Below, piece after piece: positions 1,355 through 39,851 of a DNA stretch of 39,851 bases; position 1 is the stretch's first letter, and each line of letters starts with the position of its first letter. The stretch is from a virus, in the IMG/VR virus record IMGVR_UViG_3300040856_001453, positions 1 to 39,851 of that record; one strand, 5' to 3'. The notes beneath the pieces are model-generated. The model had not been told where the DNA came from and did no database searches. It worked only from the letters and a program-made list of their open reading frames with translations. The position numbers and the translations under genes were made by a program.

Positions 1355-1368
1355 TCTTAAGATGAGAC

Positions 1369-3500: not shown

Positions 3501-3510
3501 GTATACGGAA

Positions 3511-4317: not shown

Positions 4318-4318
4318 G

Positions 4319-5524
4319 ATGCGTATCGGCGGCACTCGCGCGAGTTACAAGAAAGGATGCGTTGGCATTGTGTATGCCACCGAGTCATCGCCATATATCG
4401 GTGGTTACCGATTCGATGCTACCGATGCGTCTTCTCCTTGGAAAGCCAAGTACACATCGCCAACAGCACCGCTCGTGTCTGGGATGGATGATCGCAGTGC
4501 AGCTATAGCAGTTGCTCCAACGAATCAACACATCATCTATGGTGGCAGTGGGCTAACCACTCTTAATATCTATGGGTTTGATATAGTTGATGGTTTCGGA
4601 AGTGCAAACTTTAAGGCTGCAGATGCAGCACGTCCTGATGAATTTACTGATGTTGAAGGTATTTGCTTCTCGCAGGACGAATCTAAGATAGTAGTGTCAG
4701 CAACTAATAGCTTGTCATGCTATGACTGGGACAGTGGGTCTAGCGGGACTTCTGTAGTTGGCGCAAACCTATGGTCTGTTGCAACACAGAGGGATACAGT
4801 ACTTGCTAGTAGTCCGCAGGCTATTGGTTCAGCAGTAACATTGCTACCTTATAACTCATTGCAGCTTGGAGAAGACGAGGTAGTTCTGCAGTCTGAGTAT
4901 TTCCCCGACTCTGCCTTTTCTAACCCAGAAATGCGTCTTCGTTCTCTGTCTACAGGAAGCAACTTAGGAGTCGCACTATACTCCAGAAACTCTGGTCGAT
5001 TGCGTACACCAGTAGCATTTTCTAGACAGCCATCACTAGTCTCTGGATCTACTGAAAACACCTTGATGCTGGTTCAGGACGTTTCAGGTTCTTCTGGCGG
5101 CAACCTTGTTAAAGCTCTGGGTCTATTGGATTTAACTTGGAATTCAGACCGATCTAGTTTGATACCGTCCATCACTGCTGGTGACCAAAGGTACTGTATG
5201 TTCGACCCATACGGTCGATTGATCATAGCAAGCACGCAGGAATTGAGGCTGTACAGCCAAGACTTCGGTACTGGTGCATTCAGTCTTATTGATTCGGTAA
5301 CAGCGTGGACACACGGAGACATCAACAGCTTGGCGTACGACATAGACCAAGATGTACTATTTGTTTCTTCTCAGGCAGCTCCATACATAAACGCCTTCAG
5401 GATGTCTAGGTCAGGATTCGACCTCAAGTACCCAGCCATGACACCGTCACTTAACGATGCAGGATCTTCCGTTATAAGGATGTCGCTCGTTTATGACGAA
5501 GAGTGGAAATCATACAACGCATAG
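4319..5524 (+). CDS. Beta-propeller-like tail protein
   Basis: The ATG at 4319 is chosen rather than the upstream TTG at 4301, because GGAG at 4308-4311 lies 7 bases before it and it directly follows the previous stop codon. The 401-residue product consists of repeating beta segments of about 40-60 residues. Several resemble WD40 or NHL blades, for example C-F-S-Q-D-E-S-K-I-V-V-S-A near residue 120, and later blades with Y-C-M-F-D-P-Y-G-R-L-I-I and S-L-A-Y-D-I-D-Q-D-V-L-F-V. A multi-blade propeller is likely. In phage tails such domains serve as structural collars or receptor-binding heads. I see no catalytic residues. Confidence 0.6.
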   Translation: MRIGGTRASYKKGCVGIVYATESSPYIGGYRFDATDASSPWKAKYTSPTAPLVSGMDDRSAAIAVAPTNQHIIYGGSGLTTLNIYGFDIVDGFGSANFKAADAARPDEFTDVEGICFSQDESKIVVSATNSLSCYDWDSGSSGTSVVGANLWSVATQRDTVLASSPQAIGSAVTLLPYNSLQLGEDEVVLQSEYFPDSAFSNPEMRLRSLSTGSNLGVALYSRNSGRLRTPVAFSRQPSLVSGSTENTLMLVQDVSGSSGGNLVKALGLLDLTWNSDRSSLIPSITAGDQRYCMFDPYGRLIIASTQELRLYSQDFGTGAFSLIDSVTAWTHGDINSLAYDIDQDVLFVSSQAAPYINAFRMSRSGFDLKYPAMTPSLNDAGSSVIRMSLVYDEEWKSYNA

Positions 5525-21100: not shown

Positions 21101-23945
21101 GGTTCGCGACAAGTCAACCAAGATTACCCAGCAGAGAATGGAAGACATTGTCAAACAGCTTGTTGAACGTGGGATCGTTAGTGATCGTGACGCTTCTTTG
21201 TTCAGGGCTGCTCATCGCATGAGGCAAGGTCTGGAAAAGATTGGTTACAAGTTGGGGGATCAGGTCACTGCTCCTGTCGTTTCCAAAGTAGACATGAACA
21301 ATCTAGCATCAGGTCTAGGCTTCAGCAAAAACGATCCAGATCTACCAACCAAGCTAGCTCGTGTTGGGTTTGTTCCTTCGTCTAAGCTGCCTAGCTTGGA
21401 AGGTTTCGTTTCTACATTCACTCAGGTGTACGACAAGCCAAGGACTGGAGAGGAGCTTCGAGTTGTTTGGGTTCCAGTTGGCGTTGATCCCAATACTAAG
21501 GAGCCAATACTTAAGGAAGTTCAGATAGAACTGATACCGGAGTTTGCTGAGTCTTTGAGTAGCCTGAAGCCTATCGAAAAAAACGTGTTCTTTATGTTCA
21601 TGAGTCTTGGCTACCAGTCAATCAGAACTTCTGCCACGGGAACCTTTAGTTTCTTCGTCAAGGATTTGCCGAGAAATATATCGAGTGCTTTAGCTCGTAC
21701 AGACATAGAGGAAAGTCCTTATCTTCCATTCTACAACACGCTGAAAGGAACTATCAAAGAGTTCCACAATCGGTATGGAGTAGAGCTTGTGAGAAGGGCG
21801 GCATCTAAGGTTCCGATACTCAACCAGACTGGATGGATAAATCCACCAACAGAACTTCAGGACATGGACTCTCTGTACGTCTTAATGGAAAAGCAGGGAG
21901 GTTCTGCGTTCACTAAGCTAGGTTCATTCGTGAAGGGTTCTAGGTCTAGAAAGAGGGTAGAGCGTTCGCTCATGAGTGTTCCTCTTGACTCGCGAAGCAC
22001 AGCCCTTGACATGATATTCAATGGTGGTGCTAGAGCTGGCCTGTTGCAATCACTCAAGTCACCAGAGGGTGACGCAATAAACCTAAAGGGCGTTACTCTG
22101 GAGAGAGTTCTGTCTGGATTAGAGAGAGTAAAGGATGCAACCACTGACAAGATGGCGAATTACTTCGATGCAATGCAAAGGTTTGCTAACGCAAGTGACA
22201 AGCCGACCCGCCTGATTAATGCTAGGAACAAACTCAACGAGTTAGGGTACACCGCACTGACTGGGAATAGCTTCATAAACCCAGATGGTGACAAGGTCTC
22301 GGGTCTTCCTCAAGAAGTCTTGGTAGCTGTAATAGCAGCGTATCAGAGCGGAGGGTTAAATCACGTCAGAGGTGGAAGGTTCAACAGACATACATCTAGG
22401 TACGTCAACTTCCTTAATACTAACTGGCACTCAGTAATTACTGATGCAGTTTTAATGAAGCGAGGTGCTTTAGATCCTATTGCTGAGAAGCTACTGCCTG
22501 AAAAAGTTTCTCGCCGTATCGTAGGTAGAAGAAAGGAAGGATTGTCTGACGCAAAGGCAAGGCACATGACAATCCTTGCAGCTAAATACCTGCCGCTCAT
22601 GGCGTACTCTGTTGCTTTATCTGCCATGTACCGATTGTTCAACGATGAGGAAGAGCATTATGAAAACGCACCAGAGAAAAGAAAGGATGGTGCGTGGTTG
22701 CTAGGAAGCCAAGGCAAAACACTGCTTGAGATAAGGAGGTCATCTCAGTTCCGTCCTGCACAAGACCTCGGAATATACCTAGCGGAAAGCTTCCTCGAAT
22801 CAGAGCGTTCTAAAGGAAGGGGTTCGCTCGGTGAGATCATGTTGGAAAACACCAAGGCTCCAGTCAATCAGTTGCAGTCTTCTTTCTATGGTGGGCCATT
22901 AGGGATAATGCTTCAAGTAGCTAGCAATAAGACGTACTTTGAAACGCCGATCACACCTTCGTTCATGCAGTCAAACTTTTCACCAACTCAACAGTTCTTG
23001 CCGAACACTACATGGTTAGCTAGGAAAGGTAGTGAGATCGGTTATGGCATGACAGGTTTGAAGTTTATGACTCCCCTCAACATCGACCATGTCATGGAGG
23101 GAATGACTGCCAGACTGTGGGGATGGGGTCATGATGTCGTAGGTGGTACATTCGATCAGACGATGAAGATGTACGATGTTGCCACTGGTGAAAAGAGAAT
23201 GGCAGACTACGTTTCTCAGTTCCCAGCAGAAGAAATACTGCAAGGCATGCCTATGCTCGGCACAGCCTTTCCTTACAGGACTGAAGTGGAGCCTATCTAT
23301 TCCCTCCAAGCAGCTCTCGATGAGCAGCAGACAGTTGTCAACGACCACCAGCAGATGGGCATGTCTGGTTCCGAGTCTGCACGAATAGCAAGAAGGGAAT
23401 CTGCCTTCCTTGATAAGTTCAATGATCTTGTAAAAGGTCTGAACCAGCTTCAGCATCAGATGGAAGACGGCAAGGAAGACATTAAGCGACTGGCTGTTGG
23501 CACTGCACGTCAGGCATTAGGGTTGCGTACTCAGGACAACTTCCAGAGTGTACTAACTAGAGACAGGGACAGTCTTCCGAAGGAAGTGGTTGATGTTGTT
23601 GACCAGTTCCTCGACCTGACTATTGACAGGACGTTGCGTGTTTCAGCTAGAGGAAAGATCGAATCGTCAGACGTTCCGCTGCTCCAACAGAAGCTTGAGT
23701 ACTTGGAGCATGTCGATAACGTAGCTGCGTTTGTCAGAGAAATATCTGACATGCCTTACGTTGCCGGATACTTGAGATCAAAGTACACAGGGTCTCGCAT
23801 GTCTTCGCTAAGTAGAAGTCTGTATTCTAAACCAGAGAAGGATGGCGATCTTAATCCACACCAGCAAAGGAAGTACGATGCTGCTTACGATGAGACTACC
23901 TTCCGAGTTCGCAGGCTCCTCAAAGACCTCAAAGCAATAAGATGA
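9156..23945 (+). CDS. Giant polyvalent virion protein with strawberry-notch helicase, zincin motif and LPD38-like region
   Basis: One frame of 4929 codons with no stop. Visible order: residues 1-400, glycine- and alanine-rich hydrophobic helices (about 115-150, 205-235, 255-285) as in proteins that breach the host envelope; 440-760 acidic, disordered, with four S-V-F motifs at 574, 634, 647 and 694; a winged-helix-like stretch near 783-822; a long acidic and basic linker region to about 2220; an SF2 helicase at about 2230-2970 with Walker A G-W-Q-T-G-I-G-K-G (2304-2312), D-E-S-H (2450), S-S-A-T (about 2489), A-T-G-M-N and L-G-R-I-N-R (2892-2897), as in strawberry-notch proteins; H-E-I-A-H (3554-3558) with E-G-W-A-E at 3598-3602 as candidate third zinc ligand; and an LPD38-like region at about 4150-4560. 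In this class such proteins are packaged and injected to protect incoming DNA. That role is inferred. Confidence 0.85.
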   Translation: MAKTFKRLQKPEEKTISFDSPAVIKEDNVFFKEDSPLGMAESFGQSLKRTLIPPGSFGTAGVDKFEETIPDDYLSEKEIDNIAYDAKIAAAMRAHVAQEDQANRVFGTSVGGLATEGYGRELAAGIGFPAGAFASTATALGGGSLIDLLFGELTEGREDKGRAVSERIRSYMAESQRSQVRYPSDYKGNRPFKNTMSDEAFNTWKRSSIQALAQAPLMLSAPLIGWEGVVGTHVFGQTYDSYEEYTAAGGSKQLGMLYGLANGVVEYGVTKAFQFVGLAGLEQAFKAGRTAIHPAKQAMMREVAAKGLLSKFGVTAKGTPAALASFASTATPEAIEETMIAVMQNSLRATSGLDPNAADFENQWKAAVDASITSMLMTGAMNTAALSRGTWNKDTQQWTPDGDVQLRDVDLSPMQLAMNDPTGGIPVVEELNLGLDLTEDQRAELEEDYKKSKQQDVEQSEKQMEREKALTEAKSVSSSLNKYTEEVTDVNGDVVEVETPADAQNVRVTLNTDVDSIEYDILSYMIDENKLKLIDDDGNLKFSKLTDVSLTDEQVKKNIEDSDILSPVPEGTRSVFGRAETEPDPTVAPVLNDNTETIQDKIDASTKENMTAEEYLDYLTQRRLDQGEDLEQESVFLPDDAEAQDRSVFDVAGRDSRLDAQEAQEQYELLAEFASRNNLPEQWLQENDPRRKDSVFNESNEAPVQPEADPIRDVIQVQEEAKDVNSLIERTKTNAEAAIRQEIEERYPVESYTPVSQQFLERIIRDRLEQQFLMFSQSGTDINSLSLKLQLDLGATDADVQAALVGLQSQGLAQVDSTSNKILPSKKFVDSNRKELLEGEVGEVSEGRSYSEYVVEQNPINTDLLAFDLDQTGDATRMAKTKDGPIAVNIQRNQDGSHMVTLTKPEKFKGQREVFDADISSKDVAESAVGMLHDAIEFHGLPDSKSPQEQAELNDPNDAGWESYFNYLGVGLARNAGKALLEAGQVAVGAARGAASGSAQDIALSRMARRGARAFNDAYRNTIEYLTGKKKRPDGTVRYRDFLEAVKKDKERGFPTILDDEVDLVRRDAVVKGLFDQPWFITPDEAGVVDRGPLYQIGTKAEDTADTEAQEKTAEEVEAEKKRQFTIAKRFMEAIGQGMSFNDFIRAQEFGFEGTIEDIESGLLTEEQLRQLSKAIGEIVDLDIKQQRESEEAKKAEAAEQQEETSETTQDTEVEDQKPVSEVKVEDEVEEEEEVTPPSGENHDIFVKLFTNNEAGGFLSSTEPVYVEYEGEGTYEVLNYRTTDGQMTIVDEDGVESTWNIMDGEFSIVKTEQASDEPVPEDMQDDEQVDTEIQQDQPQVKKKRRGRSEGTAPQPKSKEQVSAIVEQAKKAAREARKSGKAEESPATKSPDDAMKNVLNALMDAGVDVVSSDEVQGRDFSADMPDELYSFDDSQTDYGGVYKETESGFDREDVESQISSLRESIQRTVNEDAPDWLYDLEDTSRDMLLYNTELKGLLSIDQDRNTDQNEQGEDGRYLKDQDGNLIERFADLEVERAAEVLGIDDDQLSNLIELHNKIVDIQDEISDLYDTLESPLRSTREAMEQDRIASVVAFQTQDYYFRSDTGRSLQDLLDEYYTRPLKDLDEDTDEFPYAFFGESATAFPDADSLPAYARETVKELSALYQITDKYESSQEQVTDEETGEQYTDTVNTYVNPPHVPNDEVRSRQKPEQIKTQTSMFGEFEYSKRLGSFSIPLYDSAGTSIGISSVYKKGNGLDEDHVLLVQKDKKTGEMLNALVPVSRIKDVPKGSRLELNITQPARDQAEFENKKIYFNDTNVSRDQLVDHIEDSYTEPTDEDSRFYTVDYARDVAAQVKRIEDAEAAEDRGEPTPEWLEKARRNSELTGGEYLDDSLNSEETAGRAVFYRKRKPDELFSDAELFPWQRVGLRTQDGEEAWVASYSPADGGVFRVQSRSQNGNIVEKDIKASDILPQSSTKKQKGIVRRETDGRDFSDEPAPKRKPAAKDLLSDTVVDALVDLMALRLQEGVSLKDIVTETMSHVAPDARPEVVKPLKAAYGFVKALSNEDLSQSQIEEVFHPYIRTANVQQNADGLEGGQGGAGVGSQGRTGDSSTEGSRRDTVGGVPESAGDQAGAGSGERGLRRRKVQEDVATADSTADSTRRRRLGDRSPDDATVSGLPDGDAGLEGGRLSDEDRADRRSERRAKFDAELRSVSRQDFSGDVASVPYQNVSGQIVDKILVPTNHADAVASNMRKIQDRYYYLPNFVAKETGLDQTSLEDFSAMYDYQLEGVAAAIAAHKRGESYILGWQTGIGKGRVVASVMQYARKQGLLPVFVTDRPDLFSSMMEDTYNIGAIKEDGDFIPFITNNESESTAINLNANIEGFGERKQVQNKSESEASMERMSVRKGRLVDGDKKYDAIFTTYDQMRPSKGLTYRNNFINNIAERAFFILDESHKIGEGKGRNADGTEKLSTGSFLRDAIAASQGALFSSATFSKTSDQIKTYVTAGLEKSLDDPTQLGDLLSSMGDAGLQIFSQGLADNGTYSRLERDMADVEVTTKQVTTVPEQVDAISQSLASLQDAQVAIKSSLKSSIEKVEGGLFGTDASSFIDGLPEGKNKGRLNEYTKPKSTSGIPFLPTKLKFAGQPQHQNVITTAITAMKVEAAADDIITQVKAGKKVVAVFDSTMESALNKFVRIQDIGVGGEVNFNLKSVLLQQVEEARRVEVLFERKTSDENGDRIINPKSKLPLEEKKRVRVRLEDSELSKEALAAIDKARSLINSLPDDIAGSPIDGVAKRLTEAGIQFAELTGRKRVIDYSSGKPIYAARDDSEASSTGKKAVQDRFNNDPQLKVILANRSIATGMNLQASFGFADQSQRHMTLIEIAKDINALMQLLGRINRANQSSVPTYSFMLTDSPTEIRVASMFSKKLRSLSASVSADGESSINPDMPDYMNFVGEYVLNDVLLQMKHEGIDLLEQMGRKKGLVLNGEEAVLKQREGDLSFFNEITSKLNFFPIAAQNEVWSRMERAYQSELESLAMAGDSPLKAKLYDFKAKTLDFEVVKAPRNAAAKEGVFGSGVRLQRVSAKNDGGILTEFAIEKRIADTLKGKEPAQFTAELMDTVISEHESYMEDRKARIAEIGIDAEARTRELNTSASSRINIIQSVLDTPVGSHVVLTTKTRNASNGQLEDYNVPAVILEHVRRGQSEDPANLSDFYVRVAVPDERGVAQISYEQISQGRFAISDPSLTRKDTLKVFTDKTKGGRIERYIATGDAVAALEQFKGYGVPGFYTNDRGEQRAGVILHRDFDPEIWRENRPASISNPNSAAMALVEGIPLRFLDGKAQITGRSDGLHIQMPFEAKGNGVSKIKKSLEDAGLKFGKSEDGLTAFINKPYSKDRLWESVVKRIIDNAGGSVVAARNHSLARQIIRDVEGLDDPRVMEGRDLFRSSRRRKKDQPLASEELNPHTEARREINFWNEVTTGGQIHVNNKDAENIIVQSKSLVNSLATIFDLKNWEGGVAGRDVHAWYQGAKKHQKYGTGEIVTAKHASARIGVRLHEIAHALDDRYSITKDQLTDEQLEKIKYLDPSIARVEEGKGRVREGWAEFVRRMFTQSSVNPEDSRVEFAERIGNFDLQEFMDEMTNWMADFANKKENSALKKQLKKARKLMNAYRDQPLANKLDSMVNVQPVDDLALSPMERASRWAAGLGRKVMFHFDDDLNEVMRFDRASVNSVNANRMALEDLVASKRHQANEQGRLAQILGVFDPNTNEMISSSGVISDFHGGIQSFFDMRSQIAVGQNKRQQIQYKNRAKVFAWARHAAWLADQEWAQDYEAGMGVEEAVAFMNEIKKDPEMYNDYIKMSEEISDQGLKYLKVALRTGGLDPNMYRFLYERYHRSKNYFPMYRIRNQENSLAMDLSASGINFTKNPLKGRSRYGNGDPVEDPLVSLESMAVDVYHKSAQTTITKEIYQRLDSGRDASLGQFARVRDKSTKITQQRMEDIVKQLVERGIVSDRDASLFRAAHRMRQGLEKIGYKLGDQVTAPVVSKVDMNNLASGLGFSKNDPDLPTKLARVGFVPSSKLPSLEGFVSTFTQVYDKPRTGEELRVVWVPVGVDPNTKEPILKEVQIELIPEFAESLSSLKPIEKNVFFMFMSLGYQSIRTSATGTFSFFVKDLPRNISSALARTDIEESPYLPFYNTLKGTIKEFHNRYGVELVRRAASKVPILNQTGWINPPTELQDMDSLYVLMEKQGGSAFTKLGSFVKGSRSRKRVERSLMSVPLDSRSTALDMIFNGGARAGLLQSLKSPEGDAINLKGVTLERVLSGLERVKDATTDKMANYFDAMQRFANASDKPTRLINARNKLNELGYTALTGNSFINPDGDKVSGLPQEVLVAVIAAYQSGGLNHVRGGRFNRHTSRYVNFLNTNWHSVITDAVLMKRGALDPIAEKLLPEKVSRRIVGRRKEGLSDAKARHMTILAAKYLPLMAYSVALSAMYRLFNDEEEHYENAPEKRKDGAWLLGSQGKTLLEIRRSSQFRPAQDLGIYLAESFLESERSKGRGSLGEIMLENTKAPVNQLQSSFYGGPLGIMLQVASNKTYFETPITPSFMQSNFSPTQQFLPNTTWLARKGSEIGYGMTGLKFMTPLNIDHVMEGMTARLWGWGHDVVGGTFDQTMKMYDVATGEKRMADYVSQFPAEEILQGMPMLGTAFPYRTEVEPIYSLQAALDEQQTVVNDHQQMGMSGSESARIARRESAFLDKFNDLVKGLNQLQHQMEDGKEDIKRLAVGTARQALGLRTQDNFQSVLTRDRDSLPKEVVDVVDQFLDLTIDRTLRVSARGKIESSDVPLLQQKLEYLEHVDNVAAFVREISDMPYVAGYLRSKYTGSRMSSLSRSLYSKPEKDGDLNPHQQRKYDAAYDETTFRVRRLLKDLKAIR
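15403..15816 (+). CDS. Candidate overprinted ORF nested in the giant gene
   Basis: In the +1 frame relative to the giant gene, a 137-codon ORF runs from ATG 15403 to TAG 15814-15816, preceded by TAA at 15391. Its translation has ordinary protein composition: five Trp, regular hydrophobics, and segments such as L-D-E-I-Q-W-E-E-F-L and R-R-M-W-Q-Q-L. Its codons favour G or C at the third position (AAG, GAG, CTG, GAC). The main frame over the same bases (residues about 2083-2220) is low-complexity Gly, Arg, Asp and Ser. That asymmetry is what an overprinted gene shows. No good Shine-Dalgarno is visible, so translation is unproven. A pair of ancient compensating frameshifts in the giant gene could leave the same trace. 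Confidence 0.35.
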   Translation: MYNRMPMDWKVDKAGLAWAPKGGLAIAVPKGLDEIQWEEFLSQLGIKLELVVENEDYGEGRYRRMWQQLTAQPIALDEDDSVTDHPMTQQFQDYLMEMRDLREEDFPMKIEPTEEAKEELSSTLSCEAFLDRTFREM

Positions 23946-24320: not shown

Positions 24321-24380
24321 AAATAAAAAACCTCCCGCTCCCCACACACCGAAGTGTGTCCAACAGGGAGAAGCAGGAGG
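24321..24380 (-). terminator. Intrinsic terminator of the reverse-strand gene at 24414-24767
   Basis: Read on the reverse strand, an outer stem joins the pieces CCTCC with GGAGG and CTCCC with GGGAG. It surrounds an inner six-pair stem ACACAC / GTGTGT closed by a C-UUCG-G tetraloop, and a run of six T and an AT-rich tail follow. The T run exists only in the reverse direction, so it ends transcription coming from the reverse-strand gene. The forward-strand text of the right arm contains CCAACAGGGAGAA, identical to the leader used in the 36-39 kb array. Confidence 0.8.
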
Positions 24381-24413
24381 CATTGTGTTCTGTAGTGTCT
24401 GTTGGTGCGTAGA

Positions 24414-24767
24414 TTATGCACTCTGAGAAGTTACAGAACAAGGGGCAATAGCTGGAACTTTACGAAGTTCCCTGACCTCAGTCAGGTGACCTTGGATTGC
24501 TGCTCGGTGTGAGGAATACACACGCTCGTTGTTAGTTCCACCACTGGCGATGGTGATCCATAGCTGTGGCTTGCGACCGAAGAATCCGATAGGTGTACTG
24601 ACGAAGTAGGTAACGACACTGGTGTTGCCAACGGTATCAACACGCAGCTTCTTGCCGAGGACTGAGCGTTCTTCACGCTTGATGCGTGCTTCCCACTCGT
24701 CATACTTTCCCCAGCTTACGGGGATAGCCTGATTGTCATCGTCTAGGATATACAGCTGCTGGCTCAT
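24414..24767 (-). CDS. Small conserved-looking protein of unknown function
   Basis: A 117-residue soluble protein read from the reverse strand, isolated between forward-strand blocks. The start has AAAGGAA about 7 bases upstream. It opens with L-Y-I-L-D-D-D-N and W-G-K-Y-D-E-W, has a charged helical stretch, then beta segments with V-V-T-Y-F-V-S-T-P-I-G-F-F-G and L-W-I-T-I-A. There is no membrane segment. No family is recognised. Having its own terminator and a promoter region shared with the divergent downstream operon suggests separate timing from both flanking operons. Confidence 0.75.
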   Translation of the reverse strand: MSQQLYILDDDNQAIPVSWGKYDEWEARIKREERSVLGKKLRVDTVGNTSVVTYFVSTPIGFFGRKPQLWITIASGGTNNERVYSSHRAAIQGHLTEVRELRKVPAIAPCSVTSQSA

Positions 24768-28335: not shown

Positions 28336-28367
28336 CCAGAAAAATTTACCAATTGGATGAAGACCCC

Positions 28368-28395
28368 TTGCTGCCTGATCCTGTCTCCCTATATT
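28368..28395 (+). promoter_or_regulatory. Candidate sigma-70-like promoter of the recombination operon
   Basis: TTGCTG (28368-28373), a 16-base spacer and TATATT (28390-28395) form a reasonable promoter in the 91-base gap before the exonuclease gene. The expected transcript begins near 28402 and would start just before the CCAACAGGAGACA leader. Confidence 0.5.
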
Positions 28396-28410
28396 CAGGT
28401 CTTCCAATAA

Positions 28411-28423
28411 CCAACAGGAGACA
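28411..28423 (+). promoter_or_regulatory. CCAACAGGAGA leader / ribosome-binding site, candidate CsrA target
   Basis: CCAACAGGAGACA lies with its GGAG six bases before the exonuclease ATG. The same leader sequence precedes genes on the opposite strand at 36.5-39.4 kb, so it is shared between distant operons of opposite direction. The core A-C-A-G-G-A resembles a CsrA-binding site. Confidence 0.6.
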
Positions 28424-28426
28424 GAG

Positions 28427-29687: not shown

Positions 29688-31265
29688 ATGGTCGGAAGCA
29701 GGGCGTACCAACAGCGACTTGTGGACGGAGCCAGACAGAAGATTGCAGAAGGACACAGACGGATCTGCATGGTGTTGCCAACCGGAGGAGGCAAAGGATT
29801 CTGTTCAGGCGACATTATCAGGATGAGTGCAGAGAAGAACAAGGAGTCTATCTTCTTTGCAGACCAGAGGGAGTTGGTGTTCCAGTTGTCGAAGCAGCTA
29901 GACAGGATGTCTGTGCCGCACAGGAAGTTGATGGCTGGTACTATCAATGAGTTCCAAAGCTACGAAGAGGCAGTGGCTAGCAGCTATAGCTTTATCGCAG
30001 CGAAGGATACTTTGTGGGCAAGGGCATTCAGGAAGAGCAAGATTGAGCCACCGAGGGCTGACCTTGTCCAGATCGACGAGTGCCATAGGATCATGAGCCG
30101 CAGCTATCGCAAGATCATGGAGCATTACTGCGATAGCATACAGCTAGGATGGACTGCTACTCCTTGCAGGGCTGACAACCAATCACTTGGAAATCATTTC
30201 GATGCGATGGTTGTTGGTGCTACATACAAGGAGCTTCAGGATCTCGGGTTCCTCGTTCCGGTCAGGGTGCTAGCACCAGACAGGCCAGACCTGAAGGGAA
30301 TGAATGGCAAAGAGTACAGCCTTAAGGAGCTTGACTCACGGATGAACAAGGCTCCTCTGGTTGGCTCGATTGTCAGCGAGTGGAGGAAGCACGCTGATGG
30401 TCGGTCTACCGTTGTGTTCGCAAGCAGCGTAGATCACAGCATCCATATCCGAGACGAGTTCAGAAAGATACTAGGCACTAACTCAGATGGCAGTGAGCGA
30501 GCCGAGCATATAGACGGTAAGATGGATCAGGCAGAAAGAGATCGCATGATGGAGCGGGTGCGTGATGGACATGTTCTGGTTCTTTGCAATTATGGTGTGG
30601 CTCACACTGGTGTGGATATACCAAGATGGAAGTACATGATCTGCGCCAGACCAACTAAGAGCTTCGGCTTGTGGCGGCAGATGGGTGGCCGGATACAGCG
30701 TCCGTTCGAGAGTCACGATGAGTGTGTGATACAGGATCACAGTGACAACGCACATCGGTTCGGTTACCCAGACGAGGATGTAAGCTGGACGCTAGACGAT
30801 GGCACGAAAGCTCAGGACTTAGACAGGACACAAAGGAACAAGCCACCGCACACAAGCAAAGAGTCGGAGCCTTACAGTTGTCCTAACTGCGGAACTCCGT
30901 ATCGTGGCATGCGTTGCCCTATGTGTGGTCGCGTGTCAGCAAAGGCAGGCAAAGCCAAGGAGATGGAGAAGGGTCAGCTGAAAGAACTCGAACGTAGGAA
31001 GGTCAACCGTGCGGCAACACGCAATGACAAGCAGGCTTTCTGGGATGAGGTCTTGGGATGGGCTATCGGAAACAATAAGAAAGTTGGTGCGGCAGCATAC
31101 AGATACAAAGATAGGTTCGGGGTGTTCCCGCCTAGCTTTATACAGAATACTCCGCGAAGTTCGCAGTGGAGAATGAGTGCCAAGGAATTCTATCGTTCGG
31201 TTATTAAACCAGAGACAGAAAGATTAAGGAAAGAACTCGAAGATGAAAGTAAATCCGACGATTAA
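29688..31265 (+). CDS. SF2 DNA helicase with C-terminal zinc ribbon
   Basis: A 525-residue helicase of the UvsW / RAD25-like type. Motif I is P-T-G-G-G-K (about 31-36), motif II D-E-C-H (about 130-133), motif III T-A-T-P (about 155-158), motif V H-T-G-V-D (about 310-314) and motif VI M-G-G-R-I-Q-R (about 336-342). After about residue 395 come C-P-N-C-G and C-P-M-C-G, a four-cysteine zinc ribbon, and then a Lys-rich helical tail. Likely roles are branch migration or fork remodelling within the recombination operon. The 3' end overlaps the next gene by 23 bases. Confidence 0.85.
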   Translation: MVGSRAYQQRLVDGARQKIAEGHRRICMVLPTGGGKGFCSGDIIRMSAEKNKESIFFADQRELVFQLSKQLDRMSVPHRKLMAGTINEFQSYEEAVASSYSFIAAKDTLWARAFRKSKIEPPRADLVQIDECHRIMSRSYRKIMEHYCDSIQLGWTATPCRADNQSLGNHFDAMVVGATYKELQDLGFLVPVRVLAPDRPDLKGMNGKEYSLKELDSRMNKAPLVGSIVSEWRKHADGRSTVVFASSVDHSIHIRDEFRKILGTNSDGSERAEHIDGKMDQAERDRMMERVRDGHVLVLCNYGVAHTGVDIPRWKYMICARPTKSFGLWRQMGGRIQRPFESHDECVIQDHSDNAHRFGYPDEDVSWTLDDGTKAQDLDRTQRNKPPHTSKESEPYSCPNCGTPYRGMRCPMCGRVSAKAGKAKEMEKGQLKELERRKVNRAATRNDKQAFWDEVLGWAIGNNKKVGAAAYRYKDRFGVFPPSFIQNTPRSSQWRMSAKEFYRSVIKPETERLRKELEDESKSDD

Positions 31266-34246: not shown

Positions 34247-34274
34247 CAAAAAAACCCAGCCCCGAAGGGCTGGG
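34247..34274 (-). terminator. Strong intrinsic terminator with UUCG loop
   Basis: Reverse-strand RNA gives CCCAGCCC paired with GGGCTGGG around a UUCG tetraloop closed by C-G, followed by seven T. It begins eight bases after the last miniprotein stop of the operon running from 35390, and so ends that transcript. Confidence 0.9.
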
Positions 34275-34281
34275 CTGCGTG

Positions 34282-35446: not shown

Positions 35447-35478
35447 TAAAAAAACCTCGACCGTTAAGCCGAGGTTGT
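35447..35478 (-). terminator. Intrinsic terminator after the ASCH-type gene
   Basis: Reverse-strand RNA forms arms AACCTCGGC and GGTCGAGGTT (nine to ten pairs including G-U), followed by seven T. It separates the ASCH-type gene from the small-gene operon promoter. Confidence 0.8.
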
Positions 35479-35502: not shown

Positions 35503-35901
35503 TTACGAGACCTGATACTGTTCGCGAACGAGGTGCGGTCTACCGCATCCTGTTGTCCAGACTATGCCGCGATCATGTGGGGCAGCGACATGTTCTGTGA
35601 ACAAGGTAGGTTCACTCATCATCCATCCGCACTTACGCTTGCCATCCTTCCATGCGAATGGACTGTTCTCAGGGACGCGATGGTTCTCATAGTCGTTAGT
35701 GAACATCTTTTTGTTGTCGTACTCAATCCATCCTTGGATCACAGCAGTCCCCACGATGGAAGCCTTCTGCTTTCCCGTTGCGATAAGTGCAATACGCTTG
35801 CCTATCACATCTGGAGGTGGCGGGTACGACCGAGTCTCAGTTTTCTTCAGCCCCATTGCGATCAGTGTCGCAAACGGTTCTTGGATATTCAGTCCGTGCA
35901 T
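35503..35901 (-). CDS. ASCH/PUA-like domain protein
   Basis: The 132-residue product begins with I-Q-E-P-F-A-T-L-I-A-M-G-L-K-K-T-E-T-R-S, the signature of ASCH-type beta-barrel domains (P-W-A-x-L-I-x-x-G-x-K-x-x-E-x-R), followed by G-K-R-I-A-L-I-A-T-G and V-G-T-A-V-I-Q-G strands. These domains bind RNA or modified nucleotides; some have nuclease or hydrolase activity on modified bases. A C-terminal C-G-W-M-M and H-D-R-G-I-V-W pattern follows. AGGA precedes the start. It may bind RNA, which is notable near CsrA-related leaders, but that link is only inferred. Confidence 0.75.
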   Translation of the reverse strand: MHGLNIQEPFATLIAMGLKKTETRSYPPPPDVIGKRIALIATGKQKASIVGTAVIQGWIEYDNKKMFTNDYENHRVPENSPFAWKDGKRKCGWMMSEPTLFTEHVAAPHDRGIVWTTGCGRPHLVREQYQVS

Positions 35902-35954
35902 ATCTTCTATCCTTTTTTACGCCGAGTCTAACGGTTATGACGGTGAGCATGAGT

Positions 35955-35981
35955 CCGACCTGCACTCCAAGTGCAGGCCGG
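35955..35981 (-). promoter_or_regulatory. Long intergenic stem-loop before the ASCH-type gene
   Basis: In the reverse-strand RNA, arms CCGGCCTGCACT and AGTGCAGGTCGG pair over 12 positions with a three-base loop and one G-U wobble that would be a mismatch on the forward strand. No T run follows, so it is not a simple terminator. It lies 53 bases upstream of the start and lacks the CCAACAGG leader seen further right. Confidence 0.6.
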
Positions 35982-36013
35982 TTTCACACTCACTACCAAC
36001 AGTGATCGGTCAG

Positions 36014-36469
36014 TCACGCACAGGGGAGGGTTTCGTGGCTGATGTAACTGCTTAGGCTTGGGACAATCACCTCGCTGCCGATGAACAGAAGGCTACTTGA
36101 ATAGTTGATCTTGCGATCACAACTAGCTGACACCTTGATGACAAAGTGGTTGTGTTTGTACGGGTTGTACGACACGGGATGCCAAGCGTAGAGCAGGTAG
36201 TCTACCATCAGGTCAGGCTTGACGATCAGTCCTGTCACATAAGCGTGGACGTTCTTGCGTTGCTCTTCGATGACACGCTTTCGCCCTGCTTGCTGCACTC
36301 TGAACTCAGCAGATCGAAGCTCAAGCCTGTCGGAGTGAGCGTAAACTTTTCCGCCTTGCCGGATGCTCCACAACCCAGTGTGCAGGTTGCGGTAAACGTC
36401 CACGTTCTTGTGCAGGTCGATACCTGCCTGCTTCATATCGTCGATGTTGCTTACGATAGGCTTAGTCAT
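36014..36469 (-). CDS. Conserved-type phage protein of unknown function
   Basis: The ATG at 36469 is chosen, overlapping the end of a 34-codon gene and with AAGG just upstream. The 151-residue product begins with a helical part, then V-D-V-Y-R-N-L-H-T-G-L-W-S-I-R, V-Y-A-H-S-D-R, G-R-K-R-V-I-E-E-Q-R-K-N-V-H-A-Y-V-T-G, and a beta-rich end. I recall these motifs from a family common in phages with no known function. There is no membrane segment. Confidence 0.7.
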   Translation of the reverse strand: MTKPIVSNIDDMKQAGIDLHKNVDVYRNLHTGLWSIRQGGKVYAHSDRLELRSAEFRVQQAGRKRVIEEQRKNVHAYVTGLIVKPDLMVDYLLYAWHPVSYNPYKHNHFVIKVSASCDRKINYSSSLLFIGSEVIVPSLSSYISHETLPCA

Positions 36470-36566
36470 TGTCCTTGATCCTCCCGATGGGGTCGAGTCT
36501 TTCCAGTGCATCGTACACTAGTATGAATACTGTCAAGCCAACGAAAGGTGCGTACCAGTGAATCAT
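36462..36566 (-). CDS. 34-residue membrane miniprotein
   Basis: ATG 36566 is preceded by the CCAACAGGAGACAAAAC leader. The 34-residue product has an N-terminal aromatic stretch, one hydrophobic helix (F-V-G-L-T-V-F-I-L-V-Y) and a charged tail that overlaps the next gene by eight bases. No family is recognised. It is the first gene of the transcript from the promoter at 36619-36648. Confidence 0.5.
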   Translation of the reverse strand: MIHWYAPFVGLTVFILVYDALERLDPIGRIKDND

Positions 36567-36572
36567 GTTTTG

Positions 36573-36611
36573 TCTCCTGTTGGTAAGAGCGGCGGGTCGA
36601 AGTGACCCGCC
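36573..36611 (-). promoter_or_regulatory. Stem-loop plus CCAACAGGAGA leader cassette A
   Basis: Reverse-strand order is stem-loop then leader. Arms GGCGGGTC and GACCCGCC (36591-36611, 8 pairs, 5-base loop), a short CGCTCTTA linker, then CCAACAGGAGA (36573-36584) ahead of the 36566 start. The linker, loop size and spacing match cassette B, and two base pairs in the stem have changed compensatorily between them. Confidence 0.75.
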
Positions 36612-36618
36612 TATAATT

Positions 36619-36648
36619 AGTATCGACACTTTGAATCTAAGACTTTAA
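36619..36648 (-). promoter_or_regulatory. Promoter-like module A
   Basis: TTAAAG, 18 bases, GATACT, then seven bases and the GGCGGG stem. The same layout occurs at 37250-37279 with the same spacer length and near-identical start region. If used, the mRNA would start at or just before the stem-loop, placing the hairpin at its 5' end. Confidence 0.5.
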
Positions 36649-36665
36649 TAAATCTCAGAATTTTT

Positions 36666-36923
36666 TTAGAGGATGCATGAGCATAGGTGCTTACCCTTTG
36701 GGTAAACGTGGAACCGTAAGCCCTTCCTCGTCGTCGAGTCACGGGTCAGCGTGTACTCGTCACCATCTACAACCTCAAGCGTGTAACGCTGAGACTTACT
36801 GTACAGCTTGAGCCACTCTGACAACTGGATCTCAGTGAAGTATCCGAGTGTCATCTTGCTTCCTGCTTTGCTCTCGATCACATGCGTATAGTCACTGTGA
36901 TCAAACCTATCTACTGCTGACAT
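36666..36923 (-). CDS. Small protein of unknown function
   Basis: The ATG at 36923 is chosen with ACAGGAGAAG 7 bases upstream; the frame extends to 36974 inside the neighbouring gene. The 85-residue product has mixed strands (Y-T-L-E-V-V-D-G-D-E-Y-T-L-T-R) and a helix (T-E-I-Q-L-S-E-W-L-K-L-Y), with a Cys pair at the very end. No family is recognised. It shares a transcript with the gene upstream. Confidence 0.65.
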   Translation of the reverse strand: MSAVDRFDHSDYTHVIESKAGSKMTLGYFTEIQLSEWLKLYSKSQRYTLEVVDGDEYTLTRDSTTRKGLRFHVYPKGKHLCSCIL

Positions 36924-36924
36924 G

Positions 36925-37197
36925 CTACTTCTCCTGTATGAAAATGTTCCAACCATAGAGTCCTGTATGCTCAATCAAGCAGCTCGCCTCCATGCCTCCG
37001 CTGACACGAAAAAAGAAGTGACCCACGGGATCGTCCCTAAGCTCGGCGCGAGCCAAGGCTTCGTCACCTCCCTGCAAATCTATTTCTTTTTCTATCTTGC
37101 TAGCCGGTGCGTCCGTCAGCCAGACAGATCCGCTAGGGAATGTAACCATGAACATACGCACTTGGCACAGCAAGTTTTTGCTATAAACGGTACTCAT
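36925..37197 (-). CDS. Small protein of unknown function
   Basis: The start at 37197 follows the CCAACAGGAGATACAAA leader; a longer frame to 37260 lies in the stem-loop and is rejected. The 90-residue product has strands M-F-M-V-T-F-P-S-G-S-V-W-L-T and an acidic helix, then G-H-F-F-F-R-V-S and G-W-N-I-F-I. There is no membrane helix. Its stop overlaps the ribosome-binding site of the next gene. Confidence 0.7.
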   Translation of the reverse strand: MSTVYSKNLLCQVRMFMVTFPSGSVWLTDAPASKIEKEIDLQGGDEALARAELRDDPVGHFFFRVSGGMEASCLIEHTGLYGWNIFIQEK

Positions 37198-37203
37198 TTT
37201 GTA

Positions 37204-37242
37204 TCTCCTGTTGGTAAGAGTGGCAGGCCACAACGGCCTGCC
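37204..37242 (-). promoter_or_regulatory. Stem-loop plus CCAACAGGAGA leader cassette B
   Basis: Arms GGCAGGCC and GGCCTGCC (37222-37242, 8 pairs, 5-base loop), an ACTCTTA linker, then CCAACAGGAGA (37204-37214). Compared with cassette A, G-C became A-U and U-A became C-G at matched stem positions, so pairing has been preserved while sequence changed. Confidence 0.8.
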
Positions 37243-37249
37243 TATAAAT

Positions 37250-37279
37250 AGTATCGGCATTCCATCCGCAAAACTTTAA
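37250..37279 (-). promoter_or_regulatory. Promoter-like module B
   Basis: TTAAAG, 18 bases, GATACT, then seven bases before the stem. It matches module A in box sequence, spacer length and distance to the stem, though the spacer bases differ. A TATAAATA on the forward strand here is part of the same element. Confidence 0.5.
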
Positions 37280-37293
37280 TCTTTTTGCAAAGA

Positions 37294-37524
37294 TTATTTT
37301 CCGTCTGCTTCTAGTCCGTGCTTCAAAGCAGCTGAGGCATAGTCGAGCGCATCGGTCATGGAGTCGATCTTTTTAATCAAGGCACGAATCACCTCGCTAA
37401 GGTGATGCTCAGTCAGGTGATCGAGTGCTGCTTGTGGGTAAGCATCTATCTGGCTCGTCATGTGATCAAGCTCTTCAGCGTGTTGCTGAGCCTCAAGATC
37501 TTGCGTGTTGCATAATTCGCACAT
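37294..37524 (-). CDS. Small acidic helical protein
   Basis: The 76-residue product opens M-C-E-L-C-N and is almost entirely helical with many Glu, Asp, His and Leu (E-E-L-D-H-M-T-S-Q-I and L-S-E-V-I-R-A-L-I-K-K-I), suggesting a coiled-coil dimer. The C-x-x-C at the N-terminus could bind metal. The leader is a variant, CCAACAACAAAGGGA, without a stem-loop. No family is recognised. Confidence 0.65.
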   Translation of the reverse strand: MCELCNTQDLEAQQHAEELDHMTSQIDAYPQAALDHLTEHHLSEVIRALIKKIDSMTDALDYASAALKHGLEADGK

Positions 37525-37567
37525 GAAAATTCCCTTTGTTGTTGGTGAAAGTGAAGACGTAATGCAA

Positions 37568-37762
37568 TCAGTCTTTGCTGGTTTCCACTAGGTCTTCTGG
37601 ATCAACTCCCTCAGGCCAAGTGGATACGTCAATCTTTCCGTTGTCAGAAAAGACCCTTACGTTTCCATGCTCGTCAACAATGTCGTCACCGTTCTCGTCA
37701 ACTAAATAGTAGCTGACTTCCCAGATCCGTACTTCGCATCCGCTGTAGTCACTATTGCTCAT
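37568..37762 (-). CDS. Small acidic beta protein
   Basis: The start at 37762 is preceded by CCAACAAGGAGATTTCAG; the longer frame reads into the stem-loop. The 64-residue product is acidic with strands (V-R-I-W-E-V-S-Y-Y-L-V and V-R-V-F-S-D-N-G-K-I-D-V-S-T-W) and D-E-N-G-D-D / D-E-H-G-N turns. Acidic beta mini-proteins in phages are sometimes DNA mimics or inhibitors of host enzymes; nothing here proves that. Confidence 0.65.
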   Translation of the reverse strand: MSNSDYSGCEVRIWEVSYYLVDENGDDIVDEHGNVRVFSDNGKIDVSTWPEGVDPEDLVETSKD

Positions 37763-37768
37763 CTGAAA

Positions 37769-37825
37769 TCTCCTTGTTGGTGTAATAAATGAGACATGCG
37801 TTGACACACGCTGGAACCGTGTGCC
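37769..37825 (-). promoter_or_regulatory. Stem-loop plus CCAACAAGGAGA leader cassette C
   Basis: The stem has arms GGCACACG and CGTGTGTC around a GTTCCAG loop (37803-37825). One pair is a G-U wobble in the reverse-strand RNA but an A-C mismatch on the forward strand. The leader CACCAACAAGGAGA (37769-37782) contains A-C-A-A-G-G-A, an exact match to the CsrA core consensus ACARGGA. Confidence 0.75.
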
Positions 37826-37838
37826 TCGGCGGTATCAC

Positions 37839-38192
37839 TTAGACATCCAAGCCGCCACGTTGTACGATCACGATGTACCGCTTGTTGCGGTAGCCTACAT
37901 AGGCATCGGAAGCCCATGATCTACCCGCTCCGCTGTCGTGTGGGCAGACGATCCACCTGCTGGCGTACCCGAAGACGCTAGTGCGTGGAATCCTGCGTTG
38001 CTTTCGCTGTGATTCCCTTCGTATTGCAGTGATGAAGTACTGCCTAGGTATGATCGTGTAGCGAGTCCAAGTCTCACCGTGGTACGACTTGGTCACAGTG
38101 CGGATGATGTGGTTTCCGAACAGCGACTTGGTCACTTCGATGTCATCGTCCGTACGATTGCAGTGGTACTCATGTGATTGGTAAAGTGCCAT
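37839..38192 (-). CDS. Basic protein of unknown function
   Basis: The start at 38192 has the CACCAACAGGGAGATTCGAT leader. The 117-residue product is beta-rich and basic, with T-R-Y-T-I-I-P-R-Q-Y-F, R-R-E-S-Q-R-K-Q-R-R-I-P-R and Y-R-N-K-R-Y-I-V-I-V strands. The basic middle suggests nucleic-acid binding. No family is recognised. Confidence 0.65.
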   Translation of the reverse strand: MALYQSHEYHCNRTDDDIEVTKSLFGNHIIRTVTKSYHGETWTRYTIIPRQYFITAIRRESQRKQRRIPRTSVFGYASRWIVCPHDSGAGRSWASDAYVGYRNKRYIVIVQRGGLDV

Positions 38193-38198
38193 ATCGAA

Positions 38199-38252
38199 TC
38201 TCCCTGTTGGTGTGAAGAGTAAACACAAGCCCAGCCTACCCAGTGGGTAGAC
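38199..38252 (-). promoter_or_regulatory. Stem-loop plus CCAACAGGGAGA leader cassette D
   Basis: Arms GTCTACCC and GGGTAGGC pair through eight positions, with a U-G wobble, around a three-base loop (38234-38252). The leader CACCAACAGGGAGA (38199-38212) follows 21 bases on. This stem is unlike those of cassettes A-C. Confidence 0.7.
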
Positions 38253-38266
38253 CGGAATACATCTAC

Positions 38267-38491
38267 TTAGAAATTAGGTTCGACAGTGAAGACCCATGAG
38301 GTGGTCTTGTTGCTGAGGATGTAGCCCCCATCGTCGTGACGATTGATGTGCCATCGCCCACTGTTGCGGCATGTCCGCAGCGTGTTAGCTAGCATCTTTC
38401 GCGTGATGATGGTAGTAGTTTTGATCGCATTCGGATTCACTGAGTTACTGCAAAAGTACTGCGTGAATGTCTGAGTCTTGATCAGTTGCAT
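38267..38491 (-). CDS. Small basic protein
   Basis: The start at 38491 has the CACCAACAGGGAGAAAAGTT leader. The 74-residue product contains T-F-T-Q-Y-F, many Thr, Arg and Asn, then R-W-H-I-N-R-H-D-D-G-G-Y-I-L-S-N and a hydrophobic strand at the end, resembling a small two-strand domain. Function unknown. Confidence 0.6.
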   Translation of the reverse strand: MQLIKTQTFTQYFCSNSVNPNAIKTTTIITRKMLANTLRTCRNSGRWHINRHDDGGYILSNKTTSWVFTVEPNF

Positions 38492-38497
38492 AACTTT

Positions 38498-38562
38498 TCT
38501 CCCTGTTGGTGGATAGATAGTGTCCACGCCTGACCATCACGACCCGTTGTCATGATGGGCAG
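38498..38562 (-). promoter_or_regulatory. Stem-loop plus CCAACAGGGAGA leader cassette E
   Basis: A 14-position stem (38530-38562) with arms CTGCCCATCATGAC and GTCGTGATGGTCAG, one C-U mismatch and one U-G wobble, around a five-base loop. The leader CACCAACAGGGAGA is at 38498-38511. The lower ten positions, including the mismatch, recur in cassette F. Confidence 0.8.
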
Positions 38563-38570
38563 ACATCGCA

Positions 38571-38954
38571 CTAGCTAGCTGACTTGATGTCAGCAATAGA
38601 ATTGCGAGCAGCACTTGCTATCTCGTTGCGATGCTTCCACATCGCAGCAGCAAGGACACACGCCTTGTCACGCAGCTTCGCTGCGTCACCGTAGAGCATC
38701 ATCAAACCTGTGATGGTGTGATGACGGCCTGATTCAAACTGCCACGCAACCCACAACGCCTCAGCCCCAGCACCTTTTGGTCTAGTCTTTCGGAAGCCAC
38801 CACCTCGCGTTGAGATGATACCTTCGATCCACTCGGTGGCCTCACCTACGGTAGGGCGTTCCGAGTAGTCCTCGTCGTTGAGCTTCGAGTCTAACCACAA
38901 TGCGATGGCGCGAGCGGCGTACTTGTTGCGTAGTTTGTTTGTCAACTTAGGCAT
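38571..38954 (-). CDS. Helical protein of unknown function
   Basis: The start at 38954 has the CTAACCAACAGGGAGAATTATT leader. The 127-residue product is helical: N-K-L-R-N-K-Y-A-A-R-A-I-A-L-W-L, then G-E-A-T-E-W-I-E-G-I-I, a glycine-rich loop (S-T-R-G-G-G-F-R-K-T-R), and A-L-W-V-A-W-Q-F-E-S-G-R-H-H-T near residue 68. No family is recognised. Confidence 0.65.
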   Translation of the reverse strand: MPKLTNKLRNKYAARAIALWLDSKLNDEDYSERPTVGEATEWIEGIISTRGGGFRKTRPKGAGAEALWVAWQFESGRHHTITGLMMLYGDAAKLRDKACVLAAAMWKHRNEIASAARNSIADIKSAS

Positions 38955-38960
38955 AATAAT

Positions 38961-39018
38961 TCTCCCTGTTGGTTAGTTAGGTAGCCAAGCCTGACCATCA
39001 CCTTGCGATGATGGGCAG
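38961..39018 (-). promoter_or_regulatory. Stem-loop plus CCAACAGGGAGA leader cassette F
   Basis: A 12-position stem with arms CTGCCCATCATC and GGTGATGGTCAG closed by a GCAA tetraloop (38991-39018), a GNRA loop only in the reverse-strand RNA. The leader CCAACAGGGAGA is at 38961-38974. The stem base equals that of cassette E but the tip differs. Confidence 0.8.
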
Positions 39019-39028
39019 ACGTAGTACC

Positions 39029-39235
39029 TCACCTTGACTCTGGAATCTGATCGTTGATTTCTTCAATGATCGTGTAGAGTAGATCCCACATTTCTCCGGT
39101 GTCGGTATACTGTTCGACTCCATCCTCATCGAACTCGAATTCGCGAATGCGATTGCGAATGCTGATGAGGGCTTCACGCATCAACTTACCTTTCATTGCG
39201 GTGTGTTGGTACGGTTTTTTGGTGTCGCCTAGCAT
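39029..39235 (-). CDS. Small helical acidic protein
   Basis: The start at 39235 has the CACCAACAACAGGGAGATTTATT leader. The 68-residue product begins M-L-G-D-T-K-K-P-Y-Q-H-T-A-M-K-G-K-L-M, followed by two helices (A-L-I-S-I-R-N-R-I-R-E-F and D-L-L-Y-T-I-I-E-E-I-N-D-Q-I) with an acidic turn. It is likely a small helical-hairpin protein. Function unknown. Confidence 0.65.
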   Translation of the reverse strand: MLGDTKKPYQHTAMKGKLMREALISIRNRIREFEFDEDGVEQYTDTGEMWDLLYTIIEEINDQIPESR

Positions 39236-39241
39236 AATAAA

Positions 39242-39296
39242 TCTCCCTGTTGTTGGTGAAATTGAGCCATGCGTTGGCACTGCTGGAACCAGTGCC
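39242..39296 (-). promoter_or_regulatory. Stem-loop plus CCAACAGGGAGA leader cassette G
   Basis: Arms GGCACTG and CAGTGCC around the same GTTCCAG loop as cassette C (39276-39296), with the same flanks (CCGA before, AACGCATG after). The leader CACCAACAACAGGGAGA is at 39242-39258. The stem tip differs from C but still pairs. Confidence 0.8.
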
Positions 39297-39310
39297 TCGG
39301 CGGGATCAAC

Positions 39311-39394
39311 TTACAGCATCCACATGGTGCAGATCACAGCCATGATGAAGTGAACTAGCACGAATGCGATGGTATCTTGTACGTCTTCTGGCAT
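39311..39394 (-). CDS. 27-residue membrane miniprotein
   Basis: ATG 39394 is preceded by CTAACCAACAGGTTTTACG, and the 27-codon frame ends at TAA 39311-39313. The product starts with an acidic stretch then one hydrophobic helix with M-A-V-I-C-T-M-W-M-L at the end. Location between two cassettes and a matching leader support translation. No family is recognised. Confidence 0.5.
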   Translation of the reverse strand: MPEDVQDTIAFVLVHFIMAVICTMWML

Positions 39395-39401
39395 CGTAAA
39401 A

Positions 39402-39468
39402 CCTGTTGGTTAGAGTGGTGAAAATCCTACTAGTGGGCAGGTGGTCGGAGCTAGCTAGATGCTAGCTC
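39402..39468 (-). promoter_or_regulatory. Stem-loop plus CCAACAGG leader cassette H
   Basis: Arms GAGCTAGC and GCTAGCTC (39448-39468, 8 pairs, 5-base loop) precede CTAACCAACAGG (39402-39413). This leader lacks GGA, so it is the weakest CsrA match. A second small stem with arms CACGC and GCGTG sits at 39478-39491, just after the upstream gene's stop. Confidence 0.7.
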
Positions 39469-39493
39469 GTCCCGTCACACGCTGAAGCGTGCA

Positions 39494-39851
39494 TCATGCT
39501 GACATCTTTGCAGCCTTGCGTAATGCGTAGACTGCTTTACCTGCCTCACTTCCTTTTGGCTGCGTGCCATGGATGAGCAGTGCGAACGATTGCCCGCGAT
39601 ACTCTGGCAGTGCAGCGTGCGAGTCGTCGTTGTCGATCTCTAGCTGCATGGCATACGCTGCCTTGTGGCTGTAGACAACAACAGCTTCACGCAAGTTCCG
39701 AGCGTCGATCTCGTGATCTAAGCGACCACCACGACTGAACGTCACCGAGAAGTTGTAAGGTAGCTCTACGCCATCGAACAAGTTTATTGACTTGGTGTAG
39801 CAGTAGAACAAGATGTCAGGTCGTCGAGCAACGACAAGCAGCCATGCGTTG
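39494..39851 (-). CDS. Phage protein of unknown function, 5' end cut by window edge
   Basis: The frame is open to the right edge, so an apparent TTG start at 39811 is likely internal and the gene begins beyond the window. About 119 residues are visible, opening W-L-L-V-V-A-R-R-P-D and containing Y-T-K-S, S-R-G-G-R-L-D-H-E-I-D-A-R, and a C-terminal F-A-L-L-I-H-G-T-Q-P-K-G-S-E-A-G-K-A-V. I recall this last motif from a phage family of uncertain function. No membrane segment is seen. Confidence 0.7.
   Translation of the reverse strand, partial: NAWLLVVARRPDILFYCYTKSINLFDGVELPYNFSVTFSRGGRLDHEIDARNLREAVVVYSHKAAYAMQLEIDNDDSHAALPEYRGQSFALLIHGTQPKGSEAGKAVYALRKAAKMSA

Follow-up and report, generated by a model that had tools for sequence, protein, structure and literature searches.

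What acts in the gaps between the small leftward genes at the right end of the viral record IMGVR_UViG_3300040856_001453, and on which strand does it act? The window analysed here, a linear phage fragment from environmental DNA that is listed in IMG/VR with 39,851 bases and 48.5% G+C, carries a leftward array of small genes, mostly without assigned function, which starts at its right end and reaches as far as a T-run terminator at 35453–35476. We extracted and folded the ten minus-strand gaps (spacers) of this array, numbered S1–S10 from the right end. With a contiguous stem score of at least 7 as the criterion and G-U pairs weighted half, a hairpin was present in nine of the ten gaps (S1–S6, S8, S9 and S10) and absent from S7. 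Eight gaps combine the hairpin with a common leader ahead of the next start codon, whereas S7 (37525–37567) has the leader only and S10 (35902–36013) the hairpin only. A first-pass annotation of this DNA had described eight such spacers and a leaderless hairpin at 35955–35981; gap extraction and folding bore this out, and the modular hairpin-plus-leader layout is upheld. Of the listed leftward starts, the two that lack a gap (36923 and an overlapping start near 36469) have neither leader nor hairpin.

The folding results point to the leftward RNA. Compared with dinucleotide shuffles, the gaps gave a mean z of −2.67 for the leftward RNA versus −1.42 for the opposite strand. A strand-neutral stem search yielded 17 G·U versus 3 A·C wobbles in eight hairpin gaps, a count that omits S7 (no hairpin) and S2 (where the scorer over-extended), the omission having been decided after the result was seen; over all ten gaps the numbers were 20 G·U versus 10 A·C. 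Both wobble counts and the folding favour the leftward RNA as the acting strand, in agreement with the earlier proposal that the wobbles point to the reverse-strand transcript.

Three pairs of cassettes could be compared as copies within the genome. At the DNA level S2 and S6 are 81% identical over 89 base pairs (bp) and S8 and S9 79% over 66 bp, while S3 and S4 are alike in their flanks and outer stem. The stems of S2 and S6 differ by two double changes, one inserted base pair and one G-C to G-U change, those of S3 and S4 by one double change and two inserted base pairs, and those of S8 and S9 by two double changes, with no broken pair in any comparison. Summed over the three pairs, this amounts to five two-sided changes, three inserted base pairs and a single one-sided change, which leaves a G-U pair in place, versus zero broken pairs. 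In the 5-nucleotide (nt) loop of S8 and S9 four positions differ, and the stem changes in pairs only. The basis here is three within-genome copy comparisons rather than a phylogenetic test; they match the first-pass claim that pairing is kept while stem sequence changes, and indicate that the hairpins are selected for RNA pairing, not for sequence. The proteins of the array are mutually unrelated, with only chance matches of 12–13 residues among them. Since unrelated proteins stand behind recognisable spacer copies, the cassette has either moved or stayed in place while the genes changed, and the spacers behave as modules.

The leader takes the form (A)CCAACA-(A)GGGAGA or -GGAGA and contains an ordinary Shine-Dalgarno stretch. 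Of the 17 leftward starts, 9 have CCAACA no more than 30 nt away, with about 0.013 expected per start, as does one of the 21 listed rightward starts, that of a RecE-like exonuclease gene at 28427. In an alignment of the nine leader-bearing spacers, A-CAACA is invariant. In the stretch 28345–28426 (plus strand) the exonuclease gene has ACCAACAGGAGA as its leader, as in S8 and S9. An upstream CTGTCTCC could pair there with GGAGACAG over the ribosome site; the spacer 28336–28426 folded no better than shuffled sequence (z 0.07), and we do not claim a hairpin. Scanning viral_contigs for the leader returned 64 contigs with a single exact match each and a run of leaders in none of them; with single copies turning up in unrelated viral contigs, the leader has no diagnostic value by itself. 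In two contigs the exact S8/S9 leader, CTCTTACCAACAGGAGA, fell within a coding stretch that, judged by reading the sequence, resembles an RNA-phage polymerase, and we took these matches as chance.

The hairpins are not ordinary intrinsic terminators, as had been proposed from their lack of T runs. Their tails (CGACC, AACGC, TCAGG, CTTGT, ACTCT, GCTCT and similar) carry no T run, the sole exception being a T-rich tail after S5 flagged by a simple T-run scan, whereas the tails of the ordinary same-strand terminators of this phage, at 35453–35476 and 34253–34276, contain at least six T. By eye, a strong terminator-like structure with a TTTTTT tail was also seen at 24330–24390 on the minus strand, downstream of the leftward gene 24414–24767; its complement contains CCAACAGGGAGA, a chance match to the leader. 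A covariance-model search of the whole window against Rfam gave no match at E values up to 1.

Taken together, the hairpins in nine of ten gaps, their compensation and strand bias, the leader at 9 of 17 starts, the T-run terminators located elsewhere and the unrelated proteins suggest that a leftward phage transcript spanning several genes carries the spacers as reusable cassettes at its gene boundaries, a reading to which we give about even weight. In the leftward mRNA the hairpin would form a short distance past the stop codon of the preceding gene. Most likely it would serve as a barrier, slowing exonuclease decay of the upstream message or marking a processed end, and it might also act as an insulator that keeps the next ribosome site from pairing with upstream sequence. 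The ACCAACA-GGGAGA leader would then provide a strong, independently used Shine-Dalgarno site together with a fixed extra motif. From sequence we infer decay barrier or insulation, promoter activity and early expression; the biochemical role may be that of a decay barrier, of processing, of insulation or of regulator binding. Of translational control, which the first-pass annotation had listed, the direct form that hides the ribosome site finds no support, as the main hairpins end about 24–53 nt upstream of the start codon.

Several observations weigh against boundary cassettes. No relative carrying them was found: searching the region against 50,697 phage records by megablast and distant blastn gave either nothing or weak matches of 80–82% over 44–47 nt in mycobacteriophages, and a pattern search for the S3/S4 hairpin gave no match. 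The geometry is not uniform: stems range from 7 to 22 bp, and their distance to the start codon from 24 to 53 nt. S6 (z −0.74) and S2 (z −1.69) are individually not significant versus shuffled sequence, so that the case for both rests on their mutual comparison. Finally, gaps in cyanophages often contain hairpins too, and some of the signal could reflect spacer structure of a generic kind. In S-SRM01, 6 of 11 gaps hold a stem of equal score, in Sf-FR1 4 of 8 and in S-EIVl 2 of 7, mostly without T runs, these phages having been chosen for a relative of the GP88-family protein of the window and not as a random sample. In S-SRM01 and Sf-FR1 we noted GC-rich gap hairpins such as AGGGGAGG..CCTCCCCT, again without T runs, and some gaps of both phages have in common a TATACTGA..TCAGTT stretch. 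A further comparator is the 5 kb contig IMGVR_UViG_3300003857_000041 (L005 below), the closest contig by its relative (47% identity) of the mycobacteriophage L5 gp82-like protein in the array; a spacer scan over all loci, whose crude gene calls let alternative starts swallow spacers, was used only as a lead to this contig. Here, at 97–4907, a repeated hairpin stands in 8 of the 10 gaps of a small-gene array as a composite resembling the promoter-early stem-loop (PeSL) cassettes of other phages. Like the window, L005 has hairpin cassettes without a T run across small genes; unlike the window, its hairpin is near-identical between copies (GTTGACTTTWAATCAAC core), with a TTGACT −35-like element inside and a TATAAT −10-like element just after, and it lacks the ACCAACA leader. 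The counts from the cyanophages and L005 imply that hairpins are common in the gaps of small-gene arrays, with the window at the high end.

PeSL-type arrays, which were missing from the candidates of the first-pass annotation, are the closest precedent. As outlined in PMC4503421 and PMC3950731 (citing Arbiol 2010 and Comeau 2014), PeSLs are mobile regulatory cassettes of stem-loop and promoter for which a role in shuffling the genes of T4-like phages has been proposed. Were the spacers of this type, each would chiefly delimit a transcription unit, bringing a promoter for the gene that follows, a hairpin ending transcription of the previous one and shared sequence for recombinational shuffling. 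S8 and S9 both carry TGYCGATACTAWTTATAGG directly before the hairpin and ending in its first GG, cassettes precede unrelated proteins, and L005 has sigma-70-like −35 and −10 elements in and after its repeated hairpins in 8 of 10 gaps. The S8/S9 block resembles a promoter, and if transcription began at or close to the GG, the hairpin would stand at the extreme 5′ end of new transcripts; the 5′ protection suggested earlier may fit best at these two gaps. However, the block is confined to two copies, no further ones being found with up to three mismatches, and no T run follows the hairpins. The region holds no more sigma-70-like matches than expected by chance, and a promoter role is therefore presumptive. 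Overall we regard this explanation as possible yet unlikely. Both systems place stem-loops between genes, before small and poorly conserved ones (in nine of ten gaps here), and the copies in the window are common to unrelated genes, two of them (S8 and S9) with a promoter-like block beside the hairpin. In contrast to PeSLs, seven of the nine hairpin gaps have no recognisable promoter, the cassette includes a conserved ribosome-site leader, the phage is not recognisably T4-type, and mobility between phages is claimed for PeSLs only.

The remaining explanations differ in what would read the hairpin. In phage T4, a hairpin about 40 nt ahead of the gp43 start is bound, together with the ribosome site, by gp43 itself (PMC3014915), and the cassettes could likewise be binding sites for a phage RNA-binding regulator of many early genes, or a shared start-associated motif. 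The hairpins of S2–S6 end about 37–42 nt before the start, CAACA is constant in all nine leaders, and among the listed rightward starts only that of the RecE-like exonuclease gene has the leader as well. We consider this quite unlikely, given that the hairpin loops differ across cassettes, that the spacing falls to 24–25 nt at S8 and S9 and rises to about 53 nt at S1 and S10, and that no regulator was identified. Slightly more doubtful is a new class of phage boundary module acting at the RNA level only, in which a covarying hairpin and conserved translation leader, copied before unrelated genes and mostly promoterless, would be read by a phage factor coordinating decay or translation across the array. 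Stem length bears on RNase III sites like those of the phage T7 early region, at which the polycistronic mRNA would be cleaved between genes. S3, S4, S5 and S10 fold to about 20–22 bp with internal loops or mismatches, and there, at no other hairpins, such processing, also an earlier suggestion, could fit; the main stems of S1, S2, S6, S8 and S9 have only 7–8 bp. Stems of that length are too short for typical RNase III substrates, which have a double helix of about 20 bp, and as an account of the array this appears improbable. Palindromic protein-binding sites in the DNA, or hairpin promoters of the kind used by the N4 virion RNA polymerase, would equally place inverted repeats before genes, and DNA binding is the role suggested for the ESAS repeats of cluster K mycobacteriophages (PMC3203893). 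The excess of G·U wobbles favours leftward RNA, arm sequence is not common to the cassette classes, and the search for an N4-type polymerase recognised none in the window, whose giant protein is a strawberry-notch helicase/LPD38 protein; we rate a DNA-level element as very improbable.

Similar gene-boundary cassettes have thus already been described in other phages, and the window resembles PeSL, the SAS/ESAS system and T4 gene 43 in layout while matching the full definition of none. In cluster K mycobacteriophages the SAS, a 13 bp GGGATAGGAGCCC next to start codons, occupies the ribosome site in some of the non-structural genes, and about half of the SAS copies have an upstream inverted repeat, the ESAS, which is 17 bp long, imperfect and built on a consensus arm; its authors found little support for RNA hairpins, with arm departures that do not support RNA pairing (PMC3203893). 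The window likewise has a start-site motif with an upstream inverted repeat. Its leader, however, is ACCAACAGGGAGA or a close variant and not GGGATAGGAGCCC, and its arms differ between classes and covary within pairs instead of following a consensus. The haloarchaeal virus HGTV-1 has a TATA-like box and inverted repeat before most open reading frames of its left half (PMC3950731), comparable to the window in repeating inverted-repeat units before many genes of one genome part, and differing in that its promoter is archaeal and that no shared bacterial ribosome leader is described for it there.

Arrays of small phage genes without assigned function supply many anti-host proteins, and little is known of how each gene receives its own expression level. 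The covarying hairpin with its fixed leader would offer a handle for finding such genes, and the cassettes, which show how an array can gain or exchange genes while their control stays as it is, could be used to test whether the lifetime of a message and its translation are set independently by spacer modules.

Table 1 Features of the leftward array and the window
Feature	Sequence or content	Position	Strand	Remark
S1 hairpin	GAGCTAGC-ATCTA-GCTAGCTC	39448..39468	-	second small hairpin ~39477-39492
S1 leader	ACCAACAGG	39402..39410	-	before 27-amino-acid open reading frame starting 39394
S2 hairpin	GGCACTG-GTTCCAG-CAGTGCC	39276..39296	-	paralogue of S6
S2 leader	CACCAACAACAGGGAGA	39242..39258	-	
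S3 hairpin	GTCTG-c-CCATCATC-GCAA-GGTGATGG-t-CAGGC	38989..39020	-	paralogue of S4; ~20 bp with outer pairs
S3 leader	ACCAACAGGGAGA	38961..38973	-	
S4 hairpin	upper stem CCATCATGAC/GTCGTGATGG	38528..38564	-	total ~20 bp
S4 leader	ACCAACAGGGAGA	38498..38510	-	
S5 hairpin	TCCGGTCTACCC-ACT-GGGTAGGCTGGG	38230..38256	-	~21 bp including outer stem
S5 leader	ACCAACAGGGAGA	38199..38211	-	
S6 hairpin	GGCACACG-GTTCCAG-CGTGTGTC	37803..37825	-	
S6 leader	ACCAACAAGGAGA	37769..37781	-	
S7 leader	ACCAACAACAAAGGGAA	37530..37546	-	no hairpin
S8 promoter-like block	TGCCGATACTATTTATAGG	37241..37259	-	runs into first hairpin bases
S8 hairpin	GGCAGGCC-GTTGT-GGCCTGCC	37222..37242	-	paralogue of S9
S8 leader	ACCAACAGGAGA	37204..37215	-	
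S9 promoter-like block	TGTCGATACTAATTATAGG	36610..36628	-	
S9 hairpin	GGCGGGTC-ACTTC-GACCCGCC	36591..36611	-	
S9 leader	ACCAACAGGAGA	36573..36584	-	
S10 hairpin	12 bp + outer 10 bp	35955..35981	-	no leader; before ASCH-like gene
Terminator	ordinary, T-run	35453..35476	-	end of this array stretch
GP88-family protein		39494-39850	-	truncated by contig end
ASCH-like gene		35503-35901	-	weak, sub-threshold ASCH match
4,929-amino-acid protein	strawberry-notch helicase + LPD38 domains	9156-23945	+	

Beyond the array, the left 24 kb of the window read rightward, and exonuclease and helicase genes lie in its middle. The array, which probably continues past the contig end, may be expressed early, judging from its content and layout. 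Its proteins 38571–38954 and 37839–38192 had no match by tblastn against the phage records, and the protein queries 29688–31265, 38571–38954 and 39494–39850 returned no useful relative in viral_contigs. Among phage matches to the GP88-family protein, Synechococcus phages were best, S-SRM01 with 47% identity. No leader array was present in the viral and genome contigs that carry relatives of the giant protein. These relatives, at about 30% identity, occur in 39 viral contigs and in many bacterial genome contigs, with cyanobacteria prominent among the best.

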